From: a virus
Virus record (IMG/VR): IMGVR_UViG_3300027973_001624
Location: 1 to 38,106 of that record
Length of the DNA: 38,106 bases
Direction: 5' to 3' (one strand)
The position numbers and the translations under genes were made by a program. The notes under the pieces were generated by a model. That model worked only from the letters and a program-made list of their open reading frames with translations. It was not told where the DNA came from and did not search any database. Positions within the stretch are counted from its first letter, which is position 1. Each line of letters opens with the position of its first letter. Shown here piece by piece: positions 3,396 through 25,094 of this stretch.

Positions 3396-3726
3396 ACTTA
3401 TCATCCAATCTTACAATATCATCTTCACCAAAATATTCGCCAAGTTGAATTTCTACAAATACCAGTTCATCTTCACCAATATTTGTAACAGAGTGCTTTG
3501 CTTCTCTGACAATTTGAATAATATCACCCACACCGTGAGTTGCTAGTACATCATTAATTTTAATTTCTGCGATTCCCTTTACAATAATCCAAATTTCACT
3601 TCTTTTAAAATGATACTGGTAACTTGGTGCCTCACCAGGATTGATGATAATTTTTTTAACTTTTGTATATTCCTCATCCATCAGGTTCTTGTATGAACCC
3701 CATGGTTTTAAAATAGTATTATCCAT
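3382..3726 (-). CDS. Cupin protein, phosphomannose isomerase C-terminal-domain type
   Basis: 114 aa from the ATG at 3726, which overlaps the fcl stop by 8 nt. A longer frame to 3813 exists, but it lies inside fcl and adds only unrelated sequence. KPWGSY near the N-terminus, YQYHFKRSEIWIIVKG (cupin motif 1 with His and Glu) and GDIIQIVREAKHSVTN (motif 2 with His) match the type II mannose-6-phosphate isomerase / mannose-1-phosphate guanylyltransferase cupin domain. Because it sits directly behind gmd and fcl, it could act in GDP-mannose supply or as a sugar isomerase. The guanylyltransferase half is absent; the adjacent gene carries a different nucleotidyltransferase. Confidence 0.72.
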   Translation of the reverse strand: MDNTILKPWGSYKNLMDEEYTKVKKIIINPGEAPSYQYHFKRSEIWIIVKGIAEIKINDVLATHGVGDIIQIVREAKHSVTNIGEDELVFVEIQLGEYFGEDDIVRLDDKYGRV

Positions 3727-4642
3727 TTTCTTTATACCATTTGTAAGTTTTTTCAATGCCTTCACAAAGACCAATTTTAGGTTGCCAATCAAGGGATTTG
3801 ATTTTATCAACATTTAAAACTTTTCTTGGAGTTCCATTAGGTTTAGTAAAGTCCCACAAAATCTCCCCAGAAAAACCAACTACATCTGAAATAATGTTTG
3901 CAAGTTCCCATATTCTAACATCTTCACCAGTTCCAACATTAATATGTTCTGGTTCATCATAATTTTGCATACAAACATAACATGCTTCTGCCAAATCATC
4001 GACATGTAGAAATTCTCTCATTGCAGAACCATCTCCCCAAAGAGTTACTGATTCATTATTTTTCATTGCATTATGAAACTTAGCAATCATTGCAGGAAGA
4101 ACATGCGATGTTTCCAGATCAAAATTATCATTGGGACCATAAAGATTTGTGGGCATCAATGAAATTGCCTTAAATCCATATTGTTGATAATATGCTTGAC
4201 ACATACGAATACCGGCAATCTTTGCAATTGCATAAGCATCATTAGTCGGTTCCAAAGGACCAGTCATAAACTGATCTTCTGTAATTGGTTGAGTCGCAAA
4301 TTTAGGATAGATGCAAGAAGATCCTAAGAACACAAGTTTCTTAACTCCATGACGATAAGCAGAATCAATTACATTAGTTTGAATCTGTAGATTATCTCTA
4401 ATAAATTGTGCCGGATAATCACTATTTGCCTTGATGCCACCAACCTTTGCGGCCGCAAGAATTACATACTCAGGTCTATTGACCTCAAAATATTTTTCAA
4501 CATCATTCTGATCTCTCAAATCAAAATGAGTTCTTGGCGCGGAATAGATATTTTTATATCCTTTAGCAATTAAATTTCTTACAATCGCAGATCCAACAAG
4601 ACCCCGATTACCTGCAACAAATACTTTACTATCACTGTCCAT
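3719..4642 (-). CDS. fcl: GDP-L-fucose synthase
   Basis: 307 aa from the ATG at 4642; an upstream in-frame ATG at 4660 lies further inside gmd. It converts GDP-4-keto-6-deoxy-D-mannose to GDP-L-fucose (epimerase plus NADPH reductase). [15 protein letters not shown] has the Rossmann GxxGxxG; LGSSCIYP (about residue 108) and YAIAK (Tyr about 137, Lys about 141) form the SDR catalytic triad. Length matches the family (about 310-320 aa). The gene overlaps gmd by 11 nt and follows it directly, giving the full two-step pathway from GDP-mannose. The likely user of GDP-fucose is the GT11 fucosyltransferase encoded at 21779-22582. Confidence 0.95.
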
Positions 4643-5633
4643 AAATGCACATATCCTCAACTAATTCTTTAAATGAAATTTTAGGTTCCCAACCCAGTTT
4701 TTCCTTTGCCTTGGAGGCATCACCTAACAAAGTCTCTACTTCAGCAGGTCTAAAATATTTAGGATTGACTTGGATGACTGTTTTTTTAGTAAGTTTATCA
4801 ATACCAACTTCATTTAATCCCTCACCTTCCCAAGCAATCTTCATACCAAAATAAGGTGCTGCTTCCTCAACAAAATCTTTAACTGAGTATTGAGTTCCAG
4901 TAGCAATCACAAAGTCTTCTGGTTCATCCTGTTGAAGCATTAACCACATTGCTTCAACAAAGTCTTTAGCATGTCCCCAATCCCTTTTAGCATTAAGATT
5001 GCCCAGGTACAAACAATCTTGAAGTCCAACTGAAATCTTAGAGAGTGCCTGCGTAATCTTACGGGTTACAAATGTTTCACCTCGTCTTGGAGATTCATGA
5101 TTGAAAAGAATACCAGTGCAAGCATACATTCCATATGCCTCACGATAGTTCTTTGTTATCCAGTATCCATAGAGTTTTGCCACCCCATAAGGAGAACGTG
5201 GATAGAAAGGTGTGGTCTCCTTCTGGGGAGTCTCCTGAACTAACCCGTAGAGTTCACTGGTAGATGCCTGATAGATCCGTACACGGTCTTCCATGCCCAG
5301 GAGACGGACTGCTTCAAGGACACGGAGAGTTCCCATAGCGTCCACATCAGCAGTGTATTCAGGCATCTCAAAGGATACTTTGACATGACTTTGAGCACCA
5401 AGATTGTAAATTTCATCTGGTTGGACTTTTTGAATAACTCTTACGATATTAGTAGAATCTGTTAAGTCTCCGTAATGTAACTTAATATTTTGATATATGT
5501 GATCAATTCGGTCGGTATTAATAGATGAAGATCTGCGAATGATGCCATGAGTTTCATAACCTTTTTCTAAAAGGAGTTCGGCAAGATATGAACCATCTTG
5601 ACCTGTGATACCGGTAATTAAAGCAACTTTCAT
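4632..5633 (-). CDS. gmd: GDP-mannose 4,6-dehydratase
   Basis: 333 aa. It makes GDP-4-keto-6-deoxymannose from GDP-D-mannose, the first committed step to GDP-fucose. [17 protein letters not shown] is the classic N-terminus, [17 protein letters not shown] is the family signature, QASTSELYG (about 122-130) holds the catalytic Thr/Ser and Glu, and YGVAK (about 149-153) holds Tyr and Lys. It is slightly shorter than E. coli Gmd. It is the first gene after a sigma70-like promoter at 5654-5682, so it probably heads an early-type transcript through fcl, the cupin gene and beyond. Codon use and style match neighbouring phage genes. Confidence 0.96.
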
Positions 5634-5688: not shown

Positions 5689-5698
5689 TCAGGTCTTT

Positions 5699-5765
5699 CA
5701 GGCTCGCCACCAATTCTTTAACTGGAAATTGGAAACCAGGCGGGAGAGAGTCCCATCCGCACCAA
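5699..5765 (-). ncRNA. Structured RNA element 1, copy A
   Basis: About 67 nt, with a second copy at 22649-22718. Both have an outer CGCC/GGCG stem, an unpaired TGGTTT, an inner six-base-pair stem, and an 11-nt loop TCCAGT(T/C)AAAG. The inner stem is CCAATT/AATTGG here and CTTGCC/GGCAAG in the other copy: the sequence changes but pairing is kept. Both copies sit just before a terminator-promoter overlap in front of a sugar operon. It could be an attenuator aptamer or a small RNA with its own terminator. No known family was assigned. Confidence 0.6.
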
Positions 5766-5774
5766 CAAGAATTT

Positions 5775-6203
5775 TTAGTGTCCCTTATCTTGTGGGGACC
5801 AAGAAGGTAAGTTAGAACCTTCTTTTTTATACTGCTCCATTAACTTATTTTGTTCTTCTATTGGAAGATTTTTGAAATAAAACCAAGCAGTACTTTTTTG
5901 GAGATGAGATTTTTCTTGATGGCAAGAAGTGCAAAGAAGTTGAAGATTATTCATCTCACTTTTTATTCTATCCCAAGAGCAAACATAAAGGCACCTCCTA
6001 TCTTTTTTAAGACCAGGATTGATATGATCTATTTCAAGACAATCAGTTGCTCCACATTCACAACATTTAGATCCAAGATTTTCTATGATAAAATTTTTCT
6101 TATCATATCTTAATCTAGTATTGTTTTCTCTGGTTTCATTGTTGAGTTTATTCTTAAACTTCAGGTAGTGTTTTCGTCTTGCCTCAGAACTGCTCCATCC
6201 CAT
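5775..6203 (-). CDS. HNH homing-type endonuclease (free-standing)
   Basis: 142 aa. CCECGATDCLEIDHINPG has the first CxxC pair and the DH of the HNH motif, and NNLQLLCTSCHQEKS has the second CxxC and the final His; together they form a beta-beta-alpha-metal nuclease with a zinc knuckle. Such genes are common mobile elements in T4-like phages. The gene is preceded by a hairpin with an internal late promoter (6206-6243) that covers its GGAG ribosome-binding site. It lies between the 65-aa gene and RNA element 1, and a partial copy of element 1 is found on its upstream side (6249-6275), which fits insertion into that element. Confidence 0.85.
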   Translation of the reverse strand: MGWSSSEARRKHYLKFKNKLNNETRENNTRLRYDKKNFIIENLGSKCCECGATDCLEIDHINPGLKKDRRCLYVCSWDRIKSEMNNLQLLCTSCHQEKSHLQKSTAWFYFKNLPIEEQNKLMEQYKKEGSNLPSWSPQDKGH

Positions 6204-7401: not shown

Positions 7402-7471
7402 TTTTTTGTATAGTACCGTTACTAATTAGCATTATAACGATTTTAAGATTGGAATTTTGTATTGATTGTAA

Positions 7472-7558
7472 CGGTAGCGGTTAGATTTGAACTAACGGAG
7501 GTGTTACCCTCATTTGTTTTCAAGACAAACGCAATAAACCAGGCTCTGCCACGCTACC
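7472..7558 (-). tRNA. tRNA-Ser(UGA), block 1
   Basis: 87 nt class II tRNA. Acceptor GGTAGCG/CGCTACC, anticodon arm TTTGT-CTTGAAA-ACAAA (UGA), long variable arm, T-arm with GTTCAAAT and discriminator G. CCA is not encoded. A second tRNA-Ser(UGA) is at 23579-23663. Confidence 0.95.
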
Positions 7559-7569
7559 AGTAAAAGTCC

Positions 7570-7827
7570 TCAACGGACTTCAAAATCCAATCTCCTCACT
7601 TTACGTTGCCTCCTTGCTTCCTGAAAGGCAAGGTCTTCATTTGTAAGAATATTGGACTTAATTTTAACACGAGTAGAGTTTAGCATAACAACACTACTCA
7701 AGTCAACTGCCGTGATTTTATCTCCACGAATAGTTGCCATATTTGAACATCCACATGCAATTGTTCTTGTTGGATGCCCTTCTATTTCTCTGTTGCACGA
7801 TTTGCAACGAATGCGTAAGTTTTCCAT
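7570..7827 (-). CDS. CxxC zinc-ribbon-like small protein, block 1 paralogue
   Basis: 85 aa from the ATG at 7827; the frame runs to 7905, but that part lies inside the Dps-like gene. CKSCN at residues about 8-12 and CGCSN at about 25-29 could form a four-Cys zinc site. A conserved NMATI, an ITAVDLS segment, and a basic tail EARRQRKVRRLDFEVR follow. The protein at 23679-23930 shares the tail almost exactly (ESRRARKVRKLDFEVR) and the CxxC layout. Both are located between tRNA-Val and tRNA-Ser. A nucleic-acid-binding role is a guess from the basic tail. Confidence 0.78.
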   Translation of the reverse strand: MENLRIRCKSCNREIEGHPTRTIACGCSNMATIRGDKITAVDLSSVVMLNSTRVKIKSNILTNEDLAFQEARRQRKVRRLDFEVR

Positions 7828-7840
7828 TTTATTATCAAAT

Positions 7841-8431
7841 TTATTGTTGCTGTACGAATGGTTGTACTTGATATGAATCCACTGGTTGTTCTTCTGGAAC
7901 TTCAATTGGAGTTTGTTCGGAATCTTCTATTGAAAGTTTGGCAGTTTTTTCAATAAATGCTCTCAATTGCCAAACAAATTTTCCATGTGATTCCATGATA
8001 TCTTGAGCAATATTGGCAGTAGCATATTGCTTCTGTGCCTCTGCTTCTTCTGATAATACAGTCAATAGTTCAATTAATGTAATATTGTCACCAAGCAAAC
8101 GCTTGATCATTTCATCAGATTTTGTAATTGGTTTACCAGGGATAATTTGTTTTTGCCCCATTTCATCAAATTGGTACGTACTTGATCCTTCACCAACAGA
8201 TGCCACTTCAACCATTCTTGTAAGAGTTCCAATTGGACGAATATTCATATAGCGCATGTGTTCGCTGATACGATCAATCTCTTCAAACATTTCATTGTAT
8301 TGTTCACCGAAGAGAGTATGAAGTTGTTGAAAATCAGGGCCAACTACATTCCAATGAAAAACCCATGTCTTATGAAAAAGAACAAAAAGATTTGCCTGTA
8401 CATCACTAATGAGTTTATATAATTTTTCCAT
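7841..8431 (-). CDS. Dps/ferritin-like protein
   Basis: 196 aa from the ATG at 8431. That start is preferred over 8449 because the late promoter at 8451-8458 would start RNA downstream of 8449. KTWVFHWNVVGPDFQQLH has the Dps ferroxidase His region, and YNEMFEEIDRISEHMRYM has the Asp/Glu ferroxidase ligands in Dps spacing. A long C-terminal tail is acidic and Gln/Pro-rich (residues about 165-196), unlike the short tails of most Dps. Dps proteins oxidise and store iron with peroxide and coat DNA. In a phage this could protect DNA late in infection; the late promoter fits a late or virion-related role. Confidence 0.8.
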   Translation of the reverse strand: MEKLYKLISDVQANLFVLFHKTWVFHWNVVGPDFQQLHTLFGEQYNEMFEEIDRISEHMRYMNIRPIGTLTRMVEVASVGEGSSTYQFDEMGQKQIIPGKPITKSDEMIKRLLGDNITLIELLTVLSEEAEAQKQYATANIAQDIMESHGKFVWQLRAFIEKTAKLSIEDSEQTPIEVPEEQPVDSYQVQPFVQQQ

Positions 8432-8450
8432 TACACCAATACTTTTCAAG

Positions 8451-8458
8451 TATTTATA
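8451..8458 (-). promoter_or_regulatory. T4-type late promoter for the Dps-like gene
   Basis: TATAAATA on the minus strand, 20 nt before the ATG at 8431 and just downstream of the tRNA-Val 3' end. Confidence 0.8.
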
Positions 8459-8461
8459 AAG

Positions 8462-8533
8462 TGGGCGATACTGGATTTGAACCAGTGACCAATAGAATGT
8501 AGATCTACTGCGCTACCACTGCGCTAATCGCCC
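8462..8533 (-). tRNA. tRNA-Val(UAC), block 1
   Basis: 72 nt. Acceptor GGGCGAT/ATCGCCC, D-arm GCGC/GCGC, anticodon arm GTAGA-TCTACAT-TCTAT giving UAC, T-arm ACTGG-TTCAAAT-CCAGT, discriminator A. Position 33 is C instead of the near-universal U. A second tRNA-Val(UAC) at 24049-24120 has U33. Confidence 0.85.
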
Positions 8534-8541
8534 AAATCTAA

Positions 8542-8706
8542 TTAATTAGATTTTAGCATGTACTCCACAGTATTTGCAACGTCATTCATTGCCGTCCTCA
8601 AATCTGGTTGTTGTCCAGATTCCTGTTTGATGGTCGATTCTGAATCATCAGTCAATGTCCAACGCCATTGCTTCAAACACTTGCAATACCAAAGTTTAAT
8701 GTTCAT
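8542..8706 (-). CDS. Small protein, unknown function
   Basis: 54 aa from the ATG at 8706, inside the last codons of the 51-aa gene (11-nt overlap). The frame extends to 8778 but overlaps that gene fully. N-terminus MNIKLWYCKCLKQWRWTLTDD has CxC and several Trp; the C-terminus is acidic and helical. No family recognised. Confidence 0.65.
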   Translation of the reverse strand: MNIKLWYCKCLKQWRWTLTDDSESTIKQESGQQPDLRTAMNDVANTVEYMLKSN

Positions 8707-8851
8707 GCTTGTTTTTTTCCAATTTAACCCAATTAAGAAGAGCATTGACTTCTGCTCTCTTTGTTTCGGTGAAATCATTACCTTTACTGAAAAGGTAGAA
8801 ATCTAATGCTTCAATAGCAAGTTCTCGGTCTTGTTGTGAAATAAGTGACAT
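8696..8851 (-). CDS. Small protein, unknown function
   Basis: 51 aa from the ATG at 8851 (MSLISQQDRELAIEALDFYLF), preferred over 8878 because the latter lies in the terminator of the upstream gene. Mostly helical and charged, ending KNKHEH. No family recognised. Confidence 0.65.
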   Translation of the reverse strand: MSLISQQDRELAIEALDFYLFSKGNDFTETKRAEVNALLNWVKLEKNKHEH

Positions 8852-8859
8852 ATAGTTTA

Positions 8860-8893
8860 AAAATAAAATCCCCCTCAAGGATATCTTGGGGGG
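8860..8893 (-). terminator. Terminator after the porin-like gene
   Basis: Minus-strand CCCCC-CAAG / CTTG-A-GGGGG hairpin, followed by ATTTTATTTTT. It begins 18 nt after the stop of the porin-like gene. Confidence 0.75.
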
Positions 8894-8911
8894 AAATTAA
8901 TTACTTATGAA

Positions 8912-9796
8912 TCAGAACTTGAAACCAAGTCCGACAGTGCCGGTTACATTGTAACCTTGACCACTACCGTAGTTGTAGGTAGCCCTACCAGCCCTGACAG
9001 ATCCAAAGGTCTCAGCACCAGTGTTGCTGAAAGGAATCTTAGCGTCGGCAAAGAGAACAACGTTCTTTGCTACGGATACTTCCGCACCTGCAACACCGAT
9101 ACCAGCACCCTGATTGCCACCCACCTGACCACCAGCACCAACATAAATGTTAGCAGTAGATACTTTTGATCCATCAGCAAGAGTACGACGGGCAACGGGA
9201 ATATCAAGAGTAGCAAGTCCACCACCGAATACACCACCACTTACATAGTTGGGAGTAGAGGTGAGAGTCACATAAGGACGAGCAGACACGGCATACTGAT
9301 TACCAAGATCAAGTGCCTTTACACGACCTTGAAGAGTAATACCTGACTCATAAACACGAGCAGCATTGGCAGTAATACCAGGATAGTTAGCAGCATTACC
9401 AGCAAAGGCAATACCACCATAGTTACCAACACCGAGTTCACGACGTTGAGTTGCAGTCACAGCAGCAACTTCCAACTTGGTTACACGGTTGCTTACAGCA
9501 CCGATTTGTGCCCGAAGAGCAGCAGCCAACTTAGCATCTGCTTCTGTATAGAATGCAGTGATGTTATCAAGGCAATGATTTGTCAGAGCAAAAACTTCAT
9601 TGCGAGTTGCATCAGCACCAGGCTTAAGAGTGCCGTTAGGATAACCAGCAAGACATCCATATCGTGAGTTAAGATTTTGAATTGCCTGATATGCCCAGTC
9701 GGTAGGTTGCAAATCCGAATAGGTAGCAGGAGCAGCAAGTACTGGTGCAGAAGTTGCGATAACAGCAACACCAGCAAGGATTGAACGAGTAATCAT
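8912..9796 (-). CDS. SLH-domain porin-like outer-membrane protein with signal peptide
   Basis: 294 aa from the ATG at 9796; the frame upstream runs into tRNA-Gly. Residues 1-22 are a Sec signal peptide (basic MITR, hydrophobic core, cleavage near VLAAPA). Residues about 25-75 match the SLH domain of cyanobacterial porins (YSDLQPTDWAYQAIQNL, then GCLAGYPNGTLKP). A short coiled coil follows (AALRAQIGAVSNRVTKLE), then a Gly/Ser/Val-rich region with alternating strands. The protein ends VTGTVGLGFKF, with the terminal Phe typical of outer-membrane beta-barrels. It resembles SomA/SomB-type porins in layout but is much shorter (they have about 500 aa). It may insert in or mimic the host outer membrane. 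Confidence 0.75.
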   Translation of the reverse strand: MITRSILAGVAVIATSAPVLAAPATYSDLQPTDWAYQAIQNLNSRYGCLAGYPNGTLKPGADATRNEVFALTNHCLDNITAFYTEADAKLAAALRAQIGAVSNRVTKLEVAAVTATQRRELGVGNYGGIAFAGNAANYPGITANAARVYESGITLQGRVKALDLGNQYAVSARPYVTLTSTPNYVSGGVFGGGLATLDIPVARRTLADGSKVSTANIYVGAGGQVGGNQGAGIGVAGAEVSVAKNVVLFADAKIPFSNTGAETFGSVRAGRATYNYGSGQGYNVTGTVGLGFKF

Positions 9797-9856
9797 AAGA
9801 TTGTTTAGAAATTTACAAATACGAAGTTTATTTAGATTCCCCAAAAGTTTGGGGCA

Positions 9857-9928
9857 AGCGGCTGACTGGATTCGAACCAGCGACATCTAACTTGGAAGGA
9901 TAGCGTTCTACCACTGAACTACAACCGC
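9857..9928 (-). tRNA. tRNA-Gly(UCC), block 1
   Basis: 72 nt. Acceptor GCGGTTG/CAGCCGC (one G-U pair), anticodon arm CTATC-CTTCCAA-GTTAG (UCC), T-arm CTGG-TTCGAAT-CCAG, discriminator U. CCA not encoded. Second copy at 24319-24390. Confidence 0.95.
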
Positions 9929-10003
9929 ATATAGGCAGGTGAGGGTTCGCCGCCCATTCGATGGGGTGCCCATTCTCCTTTTACTTTTCTTACCTAATGT
10001 TTG

Positions 10004-10074
10004 TGAGAGTGGAAGGTTTCGCATCCTTCTACTGTATCCCTTATCGGGTTGCCTTACTTTTGGCATCACTCTCA
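10004..10074 (-). ncRNA. tRNA-like four-way-junction RNA of unknown identity
   Basis: On the minus strand an outer stem TGAGAGTG/CACTCTCA closes three hairpins: TGCC/GGCA with an eight-nt loop, CCC/GGG with GATAA, and GAAGG/CCTTC with ATGCGAAA. The plan is that of a tRNA (about 70 nt), but no valid anticodon loop or T-loop is present. It starts about 17 nt downstream of its own sigma70 promoter (10096-10124). After it comes a hairpin-rich stretch (9940-9975, CCCAT/ATGGG) and then tRNA-Gly. It may be a decayed tRNA, a processing guide or a small RNA. Confidence 0.45.
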
Positions 10075-10095
10075 GCACTTCCTTCACACCTTTGA

Positions 10096-10124
10096 AGTAT
10101 AAGACGTAACGAGTATTATGTCAA
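10096..10124 (-). promoter_or_regulatory. Sigma70-type promoter before the tRNA-like RNA and tRNA-Gly
   Basis: TTGACA, a 17-nt spacer and TATACT. Its first T is also the discriminator base of tRNA-Thr, so promoter and tRNA overlap by one base. Confidence 0.78.
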
Positions 10125-10194
10125 GCCCCATGACGGAATTGAACCATCCTCTGCAGTTTACAAAACTGCTGCATCACCACAATGCTTATAGGGC
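10124..10194 (-). tRNA. tRNA-Thr(UGU)
   Basis: 71 nt. Acceptor GCCCTAT/ATGGGGC, anticodon arm GCAGT-TTTGTAA-ACTGC (UGU), T-arm GATGG-TTCAATT-CCGTC, discriminator U. No copy in block 2. Confidence 0.93.
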
Positions 10195-10197
10195 AGA

Positions 10198-10270
10198 CTC
10201 CCCGAGTTGGGTACGATCCAACAACTTTCGTGTTAACAGCACGACACTCTACCAATTGAGTTATCGGGGA
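10198..10270 (-). tRNA. tRNA-Asn(GUU), block 1
   Basis: 73 nt. Acceptor TCCCCGA/TCGGGGA, anticodon arm TCGTG-CTGTTAA-CACGA (GUU), T-stem GTTGG/CCAAC with T-loop ATCGTAC (A instead of T54), discriminator G. Three nt from tRNA-Thr. Second copy at 24123-24195. Confidence 0.9.
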
Positions 10271-10316
10271 ATGGAGGAGCGTCTATCTATGCTATGTGCA
10301 TAACGACTACTCCAAG

Positions 10317-10390
10317 CGTCTTGGGAGGGACTCGAACCCCCGACCAACTCATTAGAAGTGAGATGCTCTATCCATCTGAGCTACCAAGAC
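10317..10390 (-). tRNA. tRNA-Arg(UCU), block 1
   Basis: 74 nt. Acceptor GTCTTGG/CCAAGAC, anticodon arm TCTCA-CTTCTAA-TGAGT (UCU), T-arm with GGTTCGAGTCC, discriminator G. Almost identical to the copy at 24429-24502; the visible differences are a compensated acceptor pair. Confidence 0.95.
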
Positions 10391-10398
10391 ATAAGACA

Positions 10399-10427
10399 AT
10401 CATACCAGTTATGGATTTGATTGTCAA
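10399..10427 (-). promoter_or_regulatory. Sigma70-type promoter before tRNA-Arg
   Basis: TTGACA, a 17-nt spacer and TATGAT; the -35 box begins one base after the tRNA-Lys 3' end. Confidence 0.78.
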
Positions 10428-10428
10428 G

Positions 10429-10503
10429 TGGGACATCTGGGATTTGAACCCAGGACTAACCGATTAAAAGTCGGATACTCTGACCAGGCTGAGTTAATGT
10501 CCC
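10429..10503 (-). tRNA. tRNA-Lys(UUU)
   Basis: 75 nt. Acceptor GGGACAT/ATGTCCC, anticodon arm CCGA-CTTTTAA-TCGG (UUU), T-arm CTGGG-TTCAAAT-CCCAG, discriminator A. It begins one base after the HNH gene stop codon. Confidence 0.95.
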
Positions 10504-11656: not shown

Positions 11657-12316
11657 CTAACCTCCCTGAACCATTCTATTCGCATAACGATAGGCAAAAT
11701 CGGTTCGAGCACCGTGAATGCCCCAACCAATCCAACGATATGCAAGGTTCATATATCCATCAATACTCCTACCGGGAGTTTTCATTTGAATTTCAATCTG
11801 TTTCCATTGTGGTTCAGTCATCATAAATTGAAGTTGCCCCTCAATTGAAGATGGACTTGTTCCAATACTACGGGCAACTCTTCCGAGACCATAGTATCTG
11901 TCACTGGAAGTCCATTGAATTAATCCATAACCAGCACCACAAGATTCATAATCAGTTCTTGCTCCACCCTCGCAAATATTAGGAATAAAGTTTGATTCCT
12001 GTTTGATATTTCCAAGAATAGTAGCAAGTGCGTTCTTATCCTTGATTCCCTTCTTTTGAAGATAATCTAAAGTATAAGATTCTTGTTGATTACACCCTTT
12101 ACATTTCCAAATCTTTTCCTTTTTTTCGACCTCTGTTTGAGCAGTATTCAATTGTTTAGATTTGGTCTCGGATTGCTTCTTATAATCTTGAATAGTCAGT
12201 TCTAGAGTATCTGTTGATATTTCAGGAACTGATGGAGCATAGACTGGAAGAAGCAAAGGTGAACTGAAGGCAGATGCCACAGTAAATGAAAGAGATGTAA
12301 CTGTTTGTAATAGCAT
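11657..12316 (-). CDS. Exported phage-tail-lysozyme-type peptidoglycan hydrolase
   Basis: 219 aa. The first about 28 residues form a signal peptide (SLSFTVASAFSSPLLLPVYA). A coiled linker (about 38-75) and a CKGCNQQE pair follow. From about residue 88, LATILGNIKQESNF, GAGYGLIQWTSSDRY and YRWIGWGIHGARTDFAYRYA match the phage tail lysozyme fold (Phage_lysozyme2), with Glu in KQESNF the likely catalytic acid. The signal peptide suggests export to the periplasm rather than tail assembly. Its 5' leader is a conserved RNA shared with the RlpA-like gene. Terminator directly after the stop. Confidence 0.8.
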   Translation of the reverse strand: MLLQTVTSLSFTVASAFSSPLLLPVYAPSVPEISTDTLELTIQDYKKQSETKSKQLNTAQTEVEKKEKIWKCKGCNQQESYTLDYLQKKGIKDKNALATILGNIKQESNFIPNICEGGARTDYESCGAGYGLIQWTSSDRYYGLGRVARSIGTSPSSIEGQLQFMMTEPQWKQIEIQMKTPGRSIDGYMNLAYRWIGWGIHGARTDFAYRYANRMVQGG

Positions 12317-12437
12317 TAAGTTTAATAGAATTCAGCATCCGTATAGGTAAAGGAGAAATTCCCATCCTCTCGGGGGGCATTACCCACGGCTCTAAGTCGC
12401 ACTCAAAATCTCATAATATTATCCCTAATGTTAGGGA
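12317..12437 (-). ncRNA. Conserved structured 5' leader, copy 1 (hydrolase leader RNA)
   Basis: From the predicted start near 12437 to the ATG. A 5' hairpin (ATCCCTA/TAGGGAT, 12421-12438) comes first. Then follow AGAGCCGTGG, TGCCCCCCGAGAGG, CTATACGGATG and GAATTCTA, all shared with the leader at 24931-25058. CCGT pairs with ACGG in both copies. The next helix is GGTAA/TTACC here and GAAGG/CCTTC in the other copy, a clear compensatory change. Probably a riboswitch-like regulator of the exported hydrolases. No family was recognised. Confidence 0.65.
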
Positions 12438-12443
12438 TTTCTC

Positions 12444-12472
12444 ATAATAAGTTATTATTTAGTTTTTGTCAA
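12444..12472 (-). promoter_or_regulatory. Sigma70-type promoter for the hydrolase leader
   Basis: TTGACA, a 17-nt spacer and TATTAT on the minus strand; places the start near 12437. It lies seven bases from a plus-strand late promoter (12479-12486). Confidence 0.82.
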
Positions 12473-21070: not shown

Positions 21071-21779
21071 GATATTCGCCGTTATTTTTAGCCAGATGCA
21101 GAAGCTTTGGTTCAAATTCACAATACTGACCAAATACTTCAGGGAAAGCATACTGGGGATGAAGGGTATTTACATCACTTCGGTTTTGAGCAAAAAATTT
21201 ATTAAGATGACTTTCGTCATGCCACTGAGCAATCACATTATTTTCCAGATCTTTATTAACTCTATCTTCCAGCTCAGTAATCATTTCTAAAACCTTAGGA
21301 ACCTTTCCACCCCACAAACATCCTTGATAGTATACTGAGATATCATCTCCAGTTTCAATTCCTGCCAAGGATAGTGGATTTACATCAAATGCTCCTGGGG
21401 GATTATCATGTGGTGGCATCTTTAAGAAGTGGCATGGATGATGCACTCCGAAATATGAAAATTGTTTATCGAAAAAATCTTTACTATAAACTTTAGAGAC
21501 TGGCATTAAATCTGCATCTAAAAATACAAACCAATCTGCCTGTTCAATTTCGTCTTTAGCTTTTTGAAGAATTTCAAATCTCTTAAGAGTGATATATGGC
21601 CACTCAAGATGTTCTTGCTTGTAGGATTTAATGTCTTCCGGAAAATCTCCCTCACCATCAGTAAAAACTAAAAAAGTCTTTTCACAATCCGGTAAAAAGT
21701 TTTCCTTGACCCGCTCATACCACGAAGGTAAAAAATTTAAGTATTTTCCAGTTCCGATAAAACTAATTGCGACTTTCAT
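21063..21779 (-). CDS. Glycosyltransferase family 6 (ABO/alpha-1,3-Gal(NAc) transferase type)
   Basis: 238 aa from the ATG at 21779. LVFTDGEGDFP (about 37-47), FVFLDADLMP with the DxD at about 88-90, VYYQGCLWGG (about 149-158) and AQWHDESHLNKFF (about 184-196) are the hallmarks of GT6. In vertebrate ABO enzymes the matching motifs are FTD, DVDMxF, YYxGAFFGG and WHDESHLNKY. GT6 enzymes add Gal or GalNAc in alpha-1,3 linkage to a galactose acceptor. Most bacterial GT6 proteins lack the DxD, while this one keeps it; I recall the same being reported for a cyanophage homologue. It directly follows the GT11 fucosyltransferase. Confidence 0.88.
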   Translation of the reverse strand: MKVAISFIGTGKYLNFLPSWYERVKENFLPDCEKTFLVFTDGEGDFPEDIKSYKQEHLEWPYITLKRFEILQKAKDEIEQADWFVFLDADLMPVSKVYSKDFFDKQFSYFGVHHPCHFLKMPPHDNPPGAFDVNPLSLAGIETGDDISVYYQGCLWGGKVPKVLEMITELEDRVNKDLENNVIAQWHDESHLNKFFAQNRSDVNTLHPQYAFPEVFGQYCEFEPKLLHLAKNNGEYHV

Positions 21780-22582
21780 TAAATAATCTCCCAAGTTTCA
21801 GGTAATAAATCTGTAGTATCTAGGTGTGCAAGATTCGTGCCTCTAAACCAATCAGAAGGTGCGACTACCCGGTTATCTTCTGCTAACCAAGCTCCCCACC
21901 AGCTAAAGGAACTATTGGCAATAATATGATCTTCACATAATGTCATCAGACAAAGATCTGCATAATTAGTCTGACCTTCGGACACATAGAATCTATCAGA
22001 TTCAAATATTTTTTGATTCTTACACCATTCCGTATCATCTGAAAAAATTAGTACATTCCGCTTGGAATCAAATTGTTTCAGAGCCTCTTCATAATATTCA
22101 AAACCCAATGTTGTATGATTAGGGTTGGTTACATAATCAGTTCTCCTAACGTGTAGGGAAATTGGACTTTCAATTGAACAAATTGCATCTATACATGGAT
22201 CCAAAATATCGTTGTTAAAGGAAAAATCCTTCCTTAAATCAGATTTAACATTTTTAAAGTATTTTTCAGATTGAAAGTATCCCAAAAGAGATACCCAATC
22301 AGGACACTCATCAAATAAGTTTTTATCGAAGTTAAATCCAGACTCATTGATCGTTGGTCGATCAAAATCAATATACTGAACGTTTAGATTATTAATCGTA
22401 TCAAGTTTAAATGGAACAAACAATTGATGCTCTTTCCACTCATCTACTACGCCTTGATATTTTGATGGAGGTATGCAGTAATCGTATCCACGATTTTTAG
22501 CAATTCCCTTCAATGCTGCATACTGAAACATTTGATTTGCCAATCGTTCTCGCCGTTTGCCGAGATAATTAATTCCGATCAT
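21779..22582 (-). CDS. GT11 alpha-1,2-fucosyltransferase-like protein
   Basis: 267 aa. GKRRERLANQMFQYAALKG (residues about 8-26) is the GT11 N-terminal donor-site motif, LHVRRTDYV (about 143-151) is the HxRRxD motif, and IANSSFSWWGAWLA (about 227-240) is the C-terminal signature. GT11 enzymes transfer fucose from GDP-fucose to galactose. The donor would come from Gmd and Fcl encoded at 3719-5633. First gene of the ten-gene operon, downstream of a strong sigma70 promoter at 22605-22633. Its stop touches the GT6 start (ATG at 21779). Confidence 0.9.
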   Translation of the reverse strand: MIGINYLGKRRERLANQMFQYAALKGIAKNRGYDYCIPPSKYQGVVDEWKEHQLFVPFKLDTINNLNVQYIDFDRPTINESGFNFDKNLFDECPDWVSLLGYFQSEKYFKNVKSDLRKDFSFNNDILDPCIDAICSIESPISLHVRRTDYVTNPNHTTLGFEYYEEALKQFDSKRNVLIFSDDTEWCKNQKIFESDRFYVSEGQTNYADLCLMTLCEDHIIANSSFSWWGAWLAEDNRVVAPSDWFRGTNLAHLDTTDLLPETWEII

Positions 22583-22638: not shown

Positions 22639-22648
22639 TTAAAAAATT

Positions 22649-22718
22649 CAGGCTCGCCACTTGCCCTTTGACTGGAGGCAAGAAACCAGGCGGAGAAAGA
22701 ATTCCCCATCCGCACCAA
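22649..22718 (-). ncRNA. Structured RNA element 1, copy B
   Basis: Second copy of the element at 5699-5765. Inner stem CTTGCC/GGCAAG, loop TCCAGTCAAAG, outer stem CGCC/GGCG, then GAGCCTGA and TTTTTT. The 5' half GCGGA/TCCGC also forms a hairpin. It precedes the terminator-promoter of the GT11 operon. Confidence 0.6.
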
Positions 22719-22743
22719 TTGCTTTTGAGAAAAGCAATAAAAC

Positions 22744-22836
22744 AATAGGGTCATATTTGACTCCACCAGTGCTGTTATAGTCCATCCGTGACTTCGAGGG
22801 GGTCCCGACCAGTGCTTTTAAAGTCTCTCCGTGACT
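22744..22836 (-). ncRNA. Tandem RNA element 2, copy B
   Basis: Two units: AGTC-ACGGAGA-GACT and AGTC-ACGGATG-GACT hairpins, each followed by a T(A/T)TAA(A/C)AGCACTGGT stretch, ending in GTCA-AATA-TGAC. It starts two bases after the tRNA(CAU) 3' end. Homologous to 6509-6609. It leads into element 1 without a gene between. Confidence 0.5.
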
Positions 22837-22837
22837 A

Positions 22838-22912
22838 GTGCTCCTTGTCGGGATCGAACCGACCTTAGTCGAATTATGAGTTCGGTGCTTTCGCCAGAGA
22901 GCTAAAGGAGCA
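22838..22912 (-). tRNA. tRNA(CAU), Met elongator or lysidine-type Ile
   Basis: 75 nt. Acceptor TGCTCCT/AGGAGCA, anticodon arm CCGAA-CTCATAA-TTCGA (CAU; outermost pair mismatched), T-arm GTCGG-TTCGATC-CCGAC. Discriminator would be C, which is unusual. CAU can be Met or Ile(AUA) after lysidine modification; I cannot decide from sequence alone. Confidence 0.85.
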
Positions 22913-22934
22913 TTCGATATTCGCAAATAACGAA

Positions 22935-23022
22935 TACGAGTGCCTGGATTCGAACCAGGTCAAAGCCGCTAATCTGGCGGAAAGAGCCTATAAAACTCCT
23001 CTGACTACCAAGTCTCACTCGC
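22935..23022 (-). tRNA. Class II tRNA-like gene with an unusual anticodon loop (apparent UAU)
   Basis: 88 nt. Acceptor GCGAGTG/CACTCGT, D-arm GAC-TTGGTA-GTC, T-arm CCTGG-TTCGAAT-CCAGG and long variable arm (CCGC/GCGG) suit tRNA-Leu. The best anticodon stem GGAGT/GCTCT leaves loop TTTATAG, i.e. UAU, which is not a Leu, Ser or Tyr anticodon. Isotype undecided; a tRNA-Leu with an altered loop is likeliest. Confidence 0.7.
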
Positions 23023-23028
23023 AAAAGA

Positions 23029-23190
23029 TCAATCACTCAAACCTATTCGAGTAAATTCATCGTATTCCTCTGCAGGAATCATAACGACATCAAATGCACC
23101 ACCTTTGATTAGTAGAGATTCTCCGTTCTCAACACGTTCAAAATACTCATCAAAATATTCTTGGAATTCGCCAATAGTAATTTCAGTCAT
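23029..23190 (-). CDS. Phd/YefM-family antitoxin-like protein (no toxin next to it)
   Basis: 53 aa, too short for many gene finders. ITIGEFQEYFDEYFERV is the Phd/YefM N-terminal DNA-binding region (family pattern IxxxEFxxxxxxxxxxV), followed by GESLLIKGGAFDVVMIPAEEYDEF, read in two parts, which matches the strand-and-'EEY' C-terminal part. Antitoxins of this family bind DNA and block Doc/YoeB toxins. No toxin gene lies beside it; neighbours are tRNAs. A late promoter (23213-23220) lies 23 nt upstream. It could counter a host toxin or act as a repressor. Confidence 0.75.
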   Translation of the reverse strand: MTEITIGEFQEYFDEYFERVENGESLLIKGGAFDVVMIPAEEYDEFTRIGLSD

Positions 23191-23212
23191 GGAATTGTTC
23201 GAAAATTTAATT

Positions 23213-23220
23213 TATTTATA
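23213..23220 (-). promoter_or_regulatory. Late promoter for the Phd-like gene
   Basis: TATAAATA on the minus strand, 23 nt upstream of the ATG and 20 nt from the tRNA-Pro 3' end. Confidence 0.75.
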
Positions 23221-23239
23221 AGTTCATTAAAAAGTTTAG

Positions 23240-23311
23240 TCCGGGTGGTTGGGTTCGAACCAACGTCTTCTGCTTCCCAAAAGCAGCCGTCTACCACTGA
23301 CTTACACCCGG
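23240..23311 (-). tRNA. tRNA-Pro(UGG), block 2
   Basis: 72 nt. Acceptor CCGGGTG/CACCCGG, anticodon arm CTGCT-TTTGGGA-AGCAG (UGG), T-arm GTTGG-TTCGAAC-CCAAC, discriminator A. Fully regular, in contrast to the Pro-like RNA at 7140-7210. Confidence 0.95.
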
Positions 23312-23332
23312 TTGCTTTTCTTGTATGACAGT

Positions 23333-23361
23333 AGTATAGCCAAGATTGGAGCCACTGTCAA
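23333..23361 (-). promoter_or_regulatory. Sigma70-type promoter before tRNA-Pro
   Basis: TTGACA, a 17-nt spacer and TATACT. Confidence 0.8.
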
Positions 23362-23392
23362 GAGGTAGTATATAAATGCAACAAAAACATCG

Positions 23393-23560
23393 TCATTTGA
23401 AAGGCGGGATAATAGGTGGCTCATTTTCAAAAAATTCTCCAGGATCGGTTCCAGTTTCAACAACCTTCACCGCTCTACGATAGTATGGATTGTTGGTTTT
23501 GTCAACCCTCTCCATATAGTCTTTAATCTTTTTCCAGTTTTCCCGTTGGAAGTTATTCAT
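23393..23560 (-). CDS. NWxKIK small protein, block 2 paralogue
   Basis: 55 aa from the ATG at 23560 (MNNFQRENWKKIKDYMER); the open frame continues upstream into tRNA-Ser and is not used. Aligns with the 53-aa protein at 7240-7401 and keeps its place between tRNA-Ser and tRNA-Pro. The C-terminus differs (NEPPIIPPFK here). Function unknown. Confidence 0.75.
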   Translation of the reverse strand: MNNFQRENWKKIKDYMERVDKTNNPYYRRAVKVVETGTDPGEFFENEPPIIPPFK

Positions 23561-23578
23561 AAGATGTGGATTAAAAGG

Positions 23579-23663
23579 CGGTGAGTGTTGGATTTGAACC
23601 AACGGTGCCTCTCGACACGGTAGTTTTCAAGACTACTGCAATAAACCGCTCTGCCAACTCACC
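23579..23663 (-). tRNA. tRNA-Ser(UGA), block 2
   Basis: 85 nt class II. Acceptor GGTGAGT/ACTCACC, anticodon arm GTAGT-CTTGAAA-ACTAC (UGA), T-arm GTTGG-TTCAAAT-CCAAC, discriminator G. Confidence 0.95.
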
Positions 23664-23678
23664 ATAAAAATTCCAACA

Positions 23679-23930
23679 TCAACGAACTTCAAAGTCTAAC
23701 TTACGTACTTTTCTAGCTCTTCTAGATTCTTGGAACTGTAAATCTTCCGGAGAAAATAGAGAAGTCCTTTGAGGTTCAGATTGTGGCTTTACCATAATAA
23801 CTTGAGATAGATCTTCAGCAGTTATCTTACACCCAGTTATTGTCGTCATATTCGGACAACCACATACTTGGGTTTTGGTTTGTGTTTCTAATTCGGTGTT
23901 GCAATTCTTGCATCTGACTGTTAACATCAT
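23679..23930 (-). CDS. CxxC zinc-ribbon-like small protein, block 2 paralogue
   Basis: 83 aa (a start one codon later is equally possible). CKNCN and CGCPN pairs in the N-terminal third, NMTTI, ITAEDLSQVIMV, and the basic tail ESRRARKVRKLDFEVR match the protein at 7570-7827. The 5' part overlaps the 66-aa frame by about 100 nt. The conserved position beside tRNA-Ser in both blocks supports a shared origin. Confidence 0.78.
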   Translation of the reverse strand: MMLTVRCKNCNTELETQTKTQVCGCPNMTTITGCKITAEDLSQVIMVKPQSEPQRTSLFSPEDLQFQESRRARKVRKLDFEVR

Positions 23931-24027
23931 TTATCATCCGTTTAATATCATCTAACTCCTCATATATGTCCCGGTGATAGAACCTTATGAATTTTTGAAT
24001 GAGTCTGTTAAATGCTTTGTTTTTCAT
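23827..24027 (-). CDS. Possible coiled-coil protein overlapping the CxxC gene
   Basis: 66 aa, starting MKNKAFNRLIQKFIRFY, with a heptad-like stretch (ELDDIKRMINDVNSQMQELQ, residues about 24-43). The first 33 residues lie outside other genes and look like normal coding sequence, but the last half overlaps the CxxC gene in another frame. It occupies the slot of the Dps-like gene in block 1, with no similarity. Could be real with a long overlap, or partly spurious. Confidence 0.45.
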   Translation of the reverse strand: MKNKAFNRLIQKFIRFYHRDIYEELDDIKRMINDVNSQMQELQHRIRNTNQNPSMWLSEYDDNNWV

Positions 24028-24048
24028 AACGTATTATATATGCACAAA

Positions 24049-24120
24049 TGGGCGATATCGGATTCGAACCAATGACCGTCTGCGTGTAAAGCAGCTGCGC
24101 TACCGCTGCGCCAATTGCCC
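24049..24120 (-). tRNA. tRNA-Val(UAC), block 2
   Basis: 72 nt. Acceptor GGGCAAT/ATCGCCC with an A-C mismatch at 5-68, anticodon arm with stem CTGC/GCAG and loop TTTACAC (UAC, normal U33), T-arm ATTGG-TTCGAAT-CCGAT, discriminator A. Confidence 0.88.
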
Positions 24121-24122
24121 AA

Positions 24123-24195
24123 CTCCCCCACCTGGACTCGAACCAGGAACCCCAAAGTTAACAGCTTCGTGCTCTGCCAATTGAGCTATAGAGGA
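24123..24195 (-). tRNA. tRNA-Asn(GUU), block 2
   Basis: 73 nt. Acceptor TCCTCTA/TGGGGGA with G-U pairs, anticodon arm CGAAG-CTGTTAA-CTTTG (GUU), T-arm CCTGG-TTCGAGT-CCAGG, discriminator G. Confidence 0.92.
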
Positions 24196-24199
24196 ATGG

Positions 24200-24271
24200 T
24201 CCTCTGTCTGGGAATCGAACCCAGTTTCCCAGTGCGTTGTCCGCCTGTCCTTACCAATAGACTACCAGAGG
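24200..24271 (-). tRNA. tRNA-like gene with an abnormal anticodon arm
   Basis: 72 nt. Acceptor CCTCTGG/ACAGAGG (last pair G-A), D-arm GTCT-ATTGGTAA-GGAC, T-arm CTGGG-TTCGATT-CCCAG, discriminator A: all normal. The 17-nt anticodon region cannot form a 5-bp stem with a 7-nt loop; the only pairing is GCG/CGC around GACAA. No anticodon can be assigned. Probably a decayed or re-purposed tRNA. Confidence 0.65.
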
Positions 24272-24318
24272 GAATGGTAGTCTCTTTCTAGGTTATCTAC
24301 CTAGCGAGTGCCACCAAG

Positions 24319-24390
24319 AGCGAAATAGGAGATTCGAACTCCTGACGTTCTGCTTGGAAGGCAGACATTCTACCGCTGAATTAATTTCGC
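24319..24390 (-). tRNA. tRNA-Gly(UCC), block 2
   Basis: 72 nt. Acceptor GCGAAAT/ATTTCGC, anticodon arm TCTGC-CTTCCAA-GCAGA (UCC), T-arm AGGAG-TTCGAAT-CTCCT, discriminator U. Confidence 0.95.
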
Positions 24391-24398
24391 ATGAGACA

Positions 24399-24427
24399 AT
24401 TATAAGAGATAAACTCCAAATTGTCAA
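24399..24427 (-). promoter_or_regulatory. Sigma70-type promoter before tRNA-Gly
   Basis: TTGACA, a 17-nt spacer and TATAAT (full consensus), beginning one base after the tRNA-Arg 3' end. Confidence 0.85.
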
Positions 24428-24428
24428 G

Positions 24429-24502
24429 CGTCTCGGGAGGGACTCGAACCCCCGACCAACTCATTAGAAGTGAGATGCTCTATCCATCTGAGCTACCGAG
24501 AC
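24429..24502 (-). tRNA. tRNA-Arg(UCU), block 2
   Basis: 74 nt. Acceptor GTCTCGG/CCGAGAC; otherwise nearly identical to the copy at 10317-10390, including the anticodon arm TCTCA-CTTCTAA-TGAGT. The acceptor difference is compensated (C-G versus T-A). Confidence 0.95.
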
Positions 24503-24558: not shown

Positions 24559-24930
24559 TTAGATTTGAGAATAACACACCCTAATCTCTCCCCTACTTGG
24601 CGATGCAATAGCTGAGAATGCACCGTAAGAAAGATCAAGATTCCTGCCAGCCACATATGGACCACGATCATTGATTCGTATAATGACAGATTTACCATTC
24701 GATTCATTAGTTACTTGTAACCTAGTTCCAAATGGAAGATAACGATGTGCGGCAGAATTACCATAGGCATTGAACCGTTCGCCACTGGCGGTTCGTTGAC
24801 CATCGTAACCATCACCGACTCCATAGTGTGAAGCATAAGAACAGGTCGCTGCCTGAGAAGGAGTTGGGGCAAGAGCACCAAGACTCAGAGCAACGACCGA
24901 AAGGGTTTTGATTGTTTTGTTAAAAAGCAT
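24559..24930 (-). CDS. RlpA-like exported lytic transglycosylase (double-psi beta-barrel)
   Basis: 123 aa from the ATG at 24930; the frame upstream runs through the leader RNA and is not translated. Residues 1-29 form a signal peptide with cleavage near TPSQA. The rest is one DPBB domain: ASHYGVGDGYDGQRTASGERF, read in parts, then HRYLPFGTRLQVTN, VIIRINDRGPYVAGRNLDLS with the RlpA catalytic Asp region, and SPSRGEIRVCY. No SPOR domain. It would act on peptidoglycan in the periplasm. Together with the tail-lysozyme-like protein of block 1 it shares the same regulatory leader. Confidence 0.88.
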   Translation of the reverse strand: MLFNKTIKTLSVVALSLGALAPTPSQAATCSYASHYGVGDGYDGQRTASGERFNAYGNSAAHRYLPFGTRLQVTNESNGKSVIIRINDRGPYVAGRNLDLSYGAFSAIASPSRGEIRVCYSQI

Positions 24931-25058
24931 TAAATTTGGTAGAATTCGACATCCGTATAGAAGGGGGGTATACCAACCCTCTCGGGAGGCACCTTCCACG
25001 GCTCTAGGTGTCACGATCAAGATCACATAACGAACAAACCAATTCTTAAGAATTGATT
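24931..25058 (-). ncRNA. Conserved structured 5' leader, copy 2 (hydrolase leader RNA)
   Basis: From the predicted start near 25058 to the RlpA ATG. A palindromic hairpin CAATTCTTAAGAATTG (25040-25055) opens it, in the place of the ATCCCTA hairpin in copy 1. It shares AGAGCCGTGG, CCCGAGAGG, CTATACGGATG and GAATTCTA with 12317-12437; the helix next to CCGT/ACGG is GAAGG/CCTTC here. Candidate riboswitch or thermosensor-type leader. Confidence 0.65.
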
Positions 25059-25065
25059 AAATCAT

Positions 25066-25094
25066 AGTATAGCACCTATTTATCCAGGTGTCAA
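25066..25094 (-). promoter_or_regulatory. Sigma70-type promoter with an embedded late-promoter motif
   Basis: TTGACA, a 17-nt spacer and TATACT. The spacer contains GATAAATA (25077-25084), a late-promoter match, and a CACCT/AGGTG hairpin. It drives the RlpA leader and overlaps the stop codon of the nuclease-like gene. Confidence 0.75.

Follow-up and report, generated by a model that had tools for sequence, protein, structure and literature searches.

A putative cis-acting structured RNA family in the murein-hydrolase mRNA leaders of cyanophages

The mRNA leaders of murein-hydrolase genes in cyanophages contain a putative cis-acting structured RNA, which forms a family absent from Rfam 15 and, among the open-access literature searched, undescribed. 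The conservation of its predicted structure is proven by covariation. Two members are found in the window, that is, the whole 38,106-nucleotide stretch of DNA analysed here, a 38.1-kb piece of a virus record which by its appearance (many tRNA genes, two wcaG RNAs) comes from a T4-like cyanophage. The tRNA genes, 15 in total (ARAGORN), are arranged in two clusters at 7471-10503 and 22838-24502. The wcaG RNAs (RF01761), both on the minus strand, lie at 5696-5801 (80.6 bits), before a GDP-mannose 4,6-dehydratase gene (4632-5633, minus), and at 22646-22746 (97.3 bits), upstream of the gene for a family 11 glycosyltransferase (21779-22582, minus).

Two hydrolase leaders in one window

The first of the two genes encodes a lysozyme related to the phi29 gp13 lysozyme (PDB 3csr, E 1e-4), with an N-terminal hydrophobic segment that, judged by eye, is signal-peptide-like. 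The second encodes an RlpA-like protein. The two proteins, with a Phage_lysozyme2 and a DPBB_1 domain respectively, have no detectable relation to each other (best E 0.44), in agreement with a reading made earlier from the sequence only, which had taken the genes to be non-homologous. The leaders, both on the minus strand, are homologous, with 75% identity over 100 nt (E 6.6e-13). The shared sequence blocks and common fold described in that sequence-only reading are borne out: helix P1 is formed from CCGU and ACGG in both leaders, and helix P2 from GGUAA and UUACC before the lysozyme gene and from GAAGG and CCUUC before the RlpA gene. The 5' hairpins do occupy the same place with unrelated sequences; they are an element separate from the core motif, and none was seen in the marine relatives read. 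The bounds of the core listed below improve on those first proposed. The model CM R1 scores 99.8 bits on 12314-12419 and 100.5 bits on 24928-25033, both leaders being themselves part of the R1 training set. In the following list the promoters are sequence-only predictions.

Lysozyme gene and leader
11657-12316, minus: murein hydrolase gene, Phage_lysozyme2 (phi29 gp13-like lysozyme domain; Pfam PF18013, E 1.4e-17)
12314-12392, minus: core RNA motif, from G[AU]G to the start codon (CM R1 and coordinates)
12328-12338, minus: conserved unpaired 3' element AUGCUGAAUUC (AUGYNGARUUC), its AUG 22 nt from the start codon
12339-12342, minus: P1 3' strand, ACGG (covariation)
12346-12350, minus: P2 3' strand, UUACC (covariation)
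12361-12377, minus: P3 hairpin with GAGA (GNRA) loop (RNAfold of the core and covariation)
12380-12384, minus: P2 5' strand, GGUAA (covariation)
12386-12389, minus: P1 5' strand, CCGU (covariation)
12390-12392, minus: conserved 5' G[AU]G, here GAG
12403-12416, minus: UUAUGAG-N4-UGA element of freshwater leaders
12421-12438, minus: 5' hairpin between promoter and motif, without a clear U-run
12443-12472, minus: predicted hybrid promoter (TTGACA at 12467-12472, late-type CTAAATA at 12456-12462, -10 box TATTAT within 12443-12450)

RlpA gene and leader
24559-24930, minus: RlpA-like lytic transglycosylase gene (DPBB_1; Pfam PF03330, E 1.5e-22)
24928-25004, minus: core RNA motif (CM R1 and coordinates)
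24942-24952, minus: conserved unpaired 3' element AUGUCGAAUUC
24953-24956, minus: P1 3' strand, ACGG (covariation)
24960-24964, minus: P2 3' strand, CCUUC (covariation)
24971-24991, minus: P3 hairpin with GAGA loop (RNAfold of the core and covariation)
24992-24996, minus: P2 5' strand, GAAGG (covariation)
24998-25001, minus: P1 5' strand, CCGU (covariation)
25002-25004, minus: conserved 5' G[AU]G, here GAG
25017-25030, minus: UUAUGUG-N4-UGA element
25040-25055, minus: 5' hairpin CAAUUCUUAAGAAUUG, without a clear U-run
25063-25094, minus: predicted hybrid promoter (TTGACA at 25089-25094, ATAAATA at 25077-25083, -10 box TATACT)

Relatives and covariation

By blastn the leader is found before the lysozyme gene in S-SRM01 and DSL-LC03, and before rlpA in S-CREM1, B23, S-PM2 and S-CRM01. 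The copy of S-PM2, a phage of Synechococcus WH7803, is at 117337-117440 of NC_006820. An exact pattern of the 3' block matches at least 120 IMG/VR contigs, and further loci were reached by searches from both proteins. A looser contig pattern, which gave chance-like matches in unrelated bacteria, was left out of the analysis. Phage S-CRM01 (L006) also has, at 3397-3618 on the plus strand, a tmRNA-like stretch (permuted tmRNA RF04321, 82.5 bits; cyano_tmRNA RF01851, 74.3 bits), annotated there with tRNA-Leu.

The helices were assessed in alignment A1, which consists of 78 leaders aligned with MAFFT and was built without structure information. Across the three helices 95.5% of cells are paired, against 72.5% in the shuffled control and at most 59% when the helices are slid along the alignment. 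Compensatory change, which had been put forward from the two window copies as the mark of a real RNA structure, is abundant, with 221 double-sided cells compared with 58 after shuffling. P1 shows complete pairing throughout the 77 distinct rows; its third pair varies between GC, CG, UA and AU and its fourth between UA, AU, GC and UG. RNAalifold, run unsupervised, gives the same helices, with double changes at 9 of 12 pairs. At the 3' junction of P2 and P3 three types recur in A1 (GUACCCC, CUUCUCC and GUGCGC), and these have differing P1 and P3 sequences.

Searching both leaders against Rfam 15 up to E 10 gave only below-cut-off chance matches to snoRNA and U7 models, none overlapping the core, and the short or divergent leaders searched had no Rfam matches. 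The wcaG model (RF01761) matches neither hydrolase leader even at E 10, and no likeness to the wcaG sequences of the window is apparent by eye. The statement that no known riboswitch consensus was recognised is supported. Two findings had been named as counting against the RNA, namely a lack of covarying homologues and a match to a known RNA; both were looked into, and what was found is many covarying homologues and no Rfam match.

Target genes, position and minimal motif

The downstream proteins of the first set of leaders, which was drawn partly from protein searches, are murein hydrolases in 66 of 66 cases (36 Phage_lysozyme2 and 30 DPBB_1). The pattern of the 3' element alone leads to 81 proteins from long ORFs, comprising 70 Phage_lysozyme2, 8 DPBB_1, one of the lambda-lysozyme type (L653) and two chance sites (L639 and L749), which have neither a family assignment nor a hairpin. 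The third target type was reached through L172 (PDB 1am7, E 8e-18; PHROG 90 endolysin), and L653 is of the same type. Every real downstream gene tested encodes a murein hydrolase of the Phage_lysozyme2, RlpA/DPBB or lambda-lysozyme type, and where pairs from these three families were compared, their sequences were not detectably similar. The suggestion that the RNA has been kept because of the function encoded downstream agrees with this restriction to murein hydrolases of three families. At about 600-1850 of L169 a lambda-lysozyme-type gene and the gene adjacent to it each have their own motif copy with differing P1; the translation of the second of these lies in its RlpA match.

In scans of whole phage genomes (140-280 kb), matches of the model and of the patterns fall chiefly at the hydrolase gene or genes, the others being weak or isolated. 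The motif is not obligatory, because several cyanophages with the same enzymes lack it; these hydrolase-bearing cases are S-SZBM1, S-SKS1, ACG-2014b, S-TIM66, Sf-CH1b, S-CBS4 and the rlpA of DSL-LC03.

R1 also picks up weaker and shorter copies in marine cyanophages, which end exactly at the lysozyme start. These copies are without P2, P3 and the GNRA loop, and the marine minimum consists of G[A/U]G, a hairpin of free sequence, AUGYNGARUUC, 10 or 11 nt and the start codon. Across 298 leaders, a set for which the search required the helix and which accordingly describes variety rather than testing the helix, hairpin lengths lie between 16 and 54 nt, and 39 combinations of P1 ends occur. The pattern of the 3' element only leaves the hairpin free: a G[AU]G-hairpin stands before 94 of 105 long ORFs and at 0 of 35 non-ORF sites (Fisher p 1e-23), and dinucleotide shuffles produce a hairpin in 6.4 of 105. 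P1 column pairs aside, the 3' element showed no covarying partner either in the leader or in the early coding region.

In the marine L245, L226, L670 and L731 the upstream coding sequence (...YYRKDYFE) extends with its 3' end into the motif, and its stop codon is inside the hairpin or just past the 3' element. Coding constraint contributes in this group. Other readings of the 3' element were considered and rejected. A small ORF from the conserved AUG would mostly have UAG as its next codon, otherwise UCG, CCG, CUG or UUG, and gives no conserved peptide. An antisense partner RNA (GAATTCNGCAT) has only scattered single matches in the phage genomes, that of the window being the opposite strand of its own element. 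For a CsrA-like reading of GGAUGU no evidence was found.

The start codon lies 10-12 nt past the 3' element in 163 of 163 first-set leaders. Counted from the AUG of the element, the start codon is 22 nt away in 184 of 211 leaders (range 21-23 nt), a spacing that is partly built into the search patterns and with which the protein-derived loci agree. The 3' element thus has a fixed position at the initiation region, as in a translational operator. A Shine-Dalgarno sequence is present in 3 of 132 distinct leaders of motif-bearing genes against 27 of 135 other phage genes; these phages make little use of it overall (20% on the same criterion).

Freshwater leaders contain further conserved features upstream, with TNATGAG in 150 and ATGAGN4TGA in 149 of 199. 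TAAATA is found in 201 of 222, and TTGAC-like and -10-like boxes in 160, mostly about 70-80 nt upstream; T4 late promoters have TATAAAT (PMC3037559). A hairpin stands between promoter and motif in 146 of 159 leaders and is followed by a U-run, and so is terminator-like, in 113 of 159 (0.7% after shuffling); a clear U-run is absent in both window copies. This terminator-like hairpin is upstream of the motif, not downstream. It often reads CCCTGTTATGAGCAGGG, followed by a T-run, ahead of the hydrolase leader, and in L011, L010 and S-SRM01 (L001) it directly follows TTGACA, a spacer TAAATA and a TATAAT-like box. Together the predicted promoter and terminator-like hairpin may possibly be a timing device of their own.

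Proposed mechanism and comparison with known systems

The favoured reading, to which a probability of roughly 0.55 is given, is that the leader acts as a translational control site, recognised by a trans-acting factor that would gate hydrolase translation. Because the interior of the RNA is replaceable, recognition would fall on the base of P1, its flanks and the unpaired 11-mer. The 11-mer, which spans -22 to -12 relative to the start codon, would adjoin the initiating 30S subunit, and with the hairpin base it may form a candidate binding site just upstream of it. A hypothetical factor acting in trans, most probably a protein encoded by the phage but perhaps the ribosome, would use this site and either hold back or permit translation, so that the wall-cutting enzymes are made together and late. 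From structure, targets and position we infer the factor, its direction of action and this timing. Freshwater phages could add transcriptional timing upstream of the gate through their predicted sigma70/late hybrid promoter and the terminator-like 5' hairpin. A more specific form of the proposal, in which a single RNA-binding factor encoded by the phage recognises the sequence-free hairpin base together with the 11-nt tag at the start site and releases the unrelated murein hydrolases together at the end of infection, is put forward tentatively.

Alternatively, the leader might be an unregulated translation enhancer, in which the 30S subunit reads the hairpin and AUGYNGARUUC in place of a Shine-Dalgarno sequence. 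The fixed spacing to the start codon and the near absence of Shine-Dalgarno sequences from these leaders would suit such a role; abundant late proteins would be expected to carry the element too, however, and most genomes scanned have it at hydrolases only, which makes an enhancer unlikely. Conservation of the P1 base and of the spaced 11-mer is at least as compatible with a site for a protein or the ribosome as with a riboswitch. The sequence-only reading had called the leaders riboswitch-like, a label that is not supported: neither a ligand nor a switching structure or conserved pocket is apparent, and the marine copies do without P2, P3 and the GNRA loop. A riboswitch, binding a metabolite or second messenger and so switching hydrolase translation, would account for the compact covarying structure with its GNRA-capped stem and invariant unpaired nucleotides directly before the start codon, and wcaG, a cyanophage motif proposed as a riboswitch candidate by Weinberg et al. 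(PMC2864571), is present twice in the window. Against this, the interior may be no more than a hairpin of 16 nt, and because most of the RNA is replaceable there is little room for a ligand pocket, only about 14 conserved nucleotides being left for it. The 3' element has no alternative covarying pairing, the start region included; the targets all serve a single process, with no metabolic or transport gene among them. A search of 386 cyanobacterial genomes with R1 gave 0 matches, a weak negative obtained with strict filters and no positive control. Taken together these points leave a riboswitch rather improbable.

The sequence independence of the hairpin would also suit an mRNA-stabilizing 5' stem-loop of the ompA type, shielding the hydrolase transcript from RNase E, and a late-type TAAATA or -10 box immediately ahead of G[AU]G, as found in some of the marine phages, would place the hairpin at the 5' end. 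Stabilization leaves the conservation and spacing of AUGYNGARUUC unexplained, the predicted freshwater promoter is about 70-80 nt upstream of the motif, and in one marine group the motif lies within a transcript and overlaps the upstream gene; such a role is very unlikely. Leader and gene could travel as a unit, so that the RNA might be a processing or other non-regulatory element, or simply carried along in hydrolase gene exchange. The compensatory changes and freely swapped P1 sequences show selection on pairing, and the motif precedes three protein families without detectable similarity in the pairs compared, so that this explanation is very improbable indeed.

The genomes of large lytic cyanophages do not readily show how the production of wall-degrading enzymes is timed. 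An RNA structure common to three types of hydrolase gene, and to freshwater and marine phages alike, offers a concrete and mutable handle on lysis timing, and adds a well-covarying family to the known cyanophage leaders. It is also a reliable annotation mark for start codons and for lysis genes now called hypothetical, such as the gp214 homologues.

Among the known cyanophage leader RNAs, manA, wcaG and PhotoRC-II are named in a 2010 survey of candidate RNAs (PMC2864571), and the genome paper of S-CREM1 gives abiF, wcaG, manA and glnA elements but not the hydrolase leader (PMC9964418). The rlpA leader of that phage is at 38068-38175, and its wcaG, manA and glnA elements lie elsewhere. Like the hydrolase leader, wcaG RNA (RF01761) is a structured leader of T4-like cyanophages with a proposed cis-regulatory role, but it differs in sequence, structure and targets, which are exopolysaccharide or high-light genes. 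The models of manA RNA (RF01745), PhotoRC-II (RF01717) and the glnA/glutamine riboswitch (RF01739), also leader RNAs of cyanophages, do not match here. Stabilizers of the ompA type resemble some marine members in having a sequence-independent hairpin near the mRNA 5' end; they are not known to have a conserved 11-mer at constant spacing from the start codon. T4 RegA sites are, to our knowledge, not defined by a conserved hairpin of the present kind, and in the MS2 operator it is the loop and a bulge that are recognised, whereas the loop and interior are free in the hydrolase leader. Both the T4 RegA sites and the MS2 coat operator are short, protein-recognised sites overlapping the initiation region, and it is these phage translational operators that the proposed site resembles in its small size and its position.
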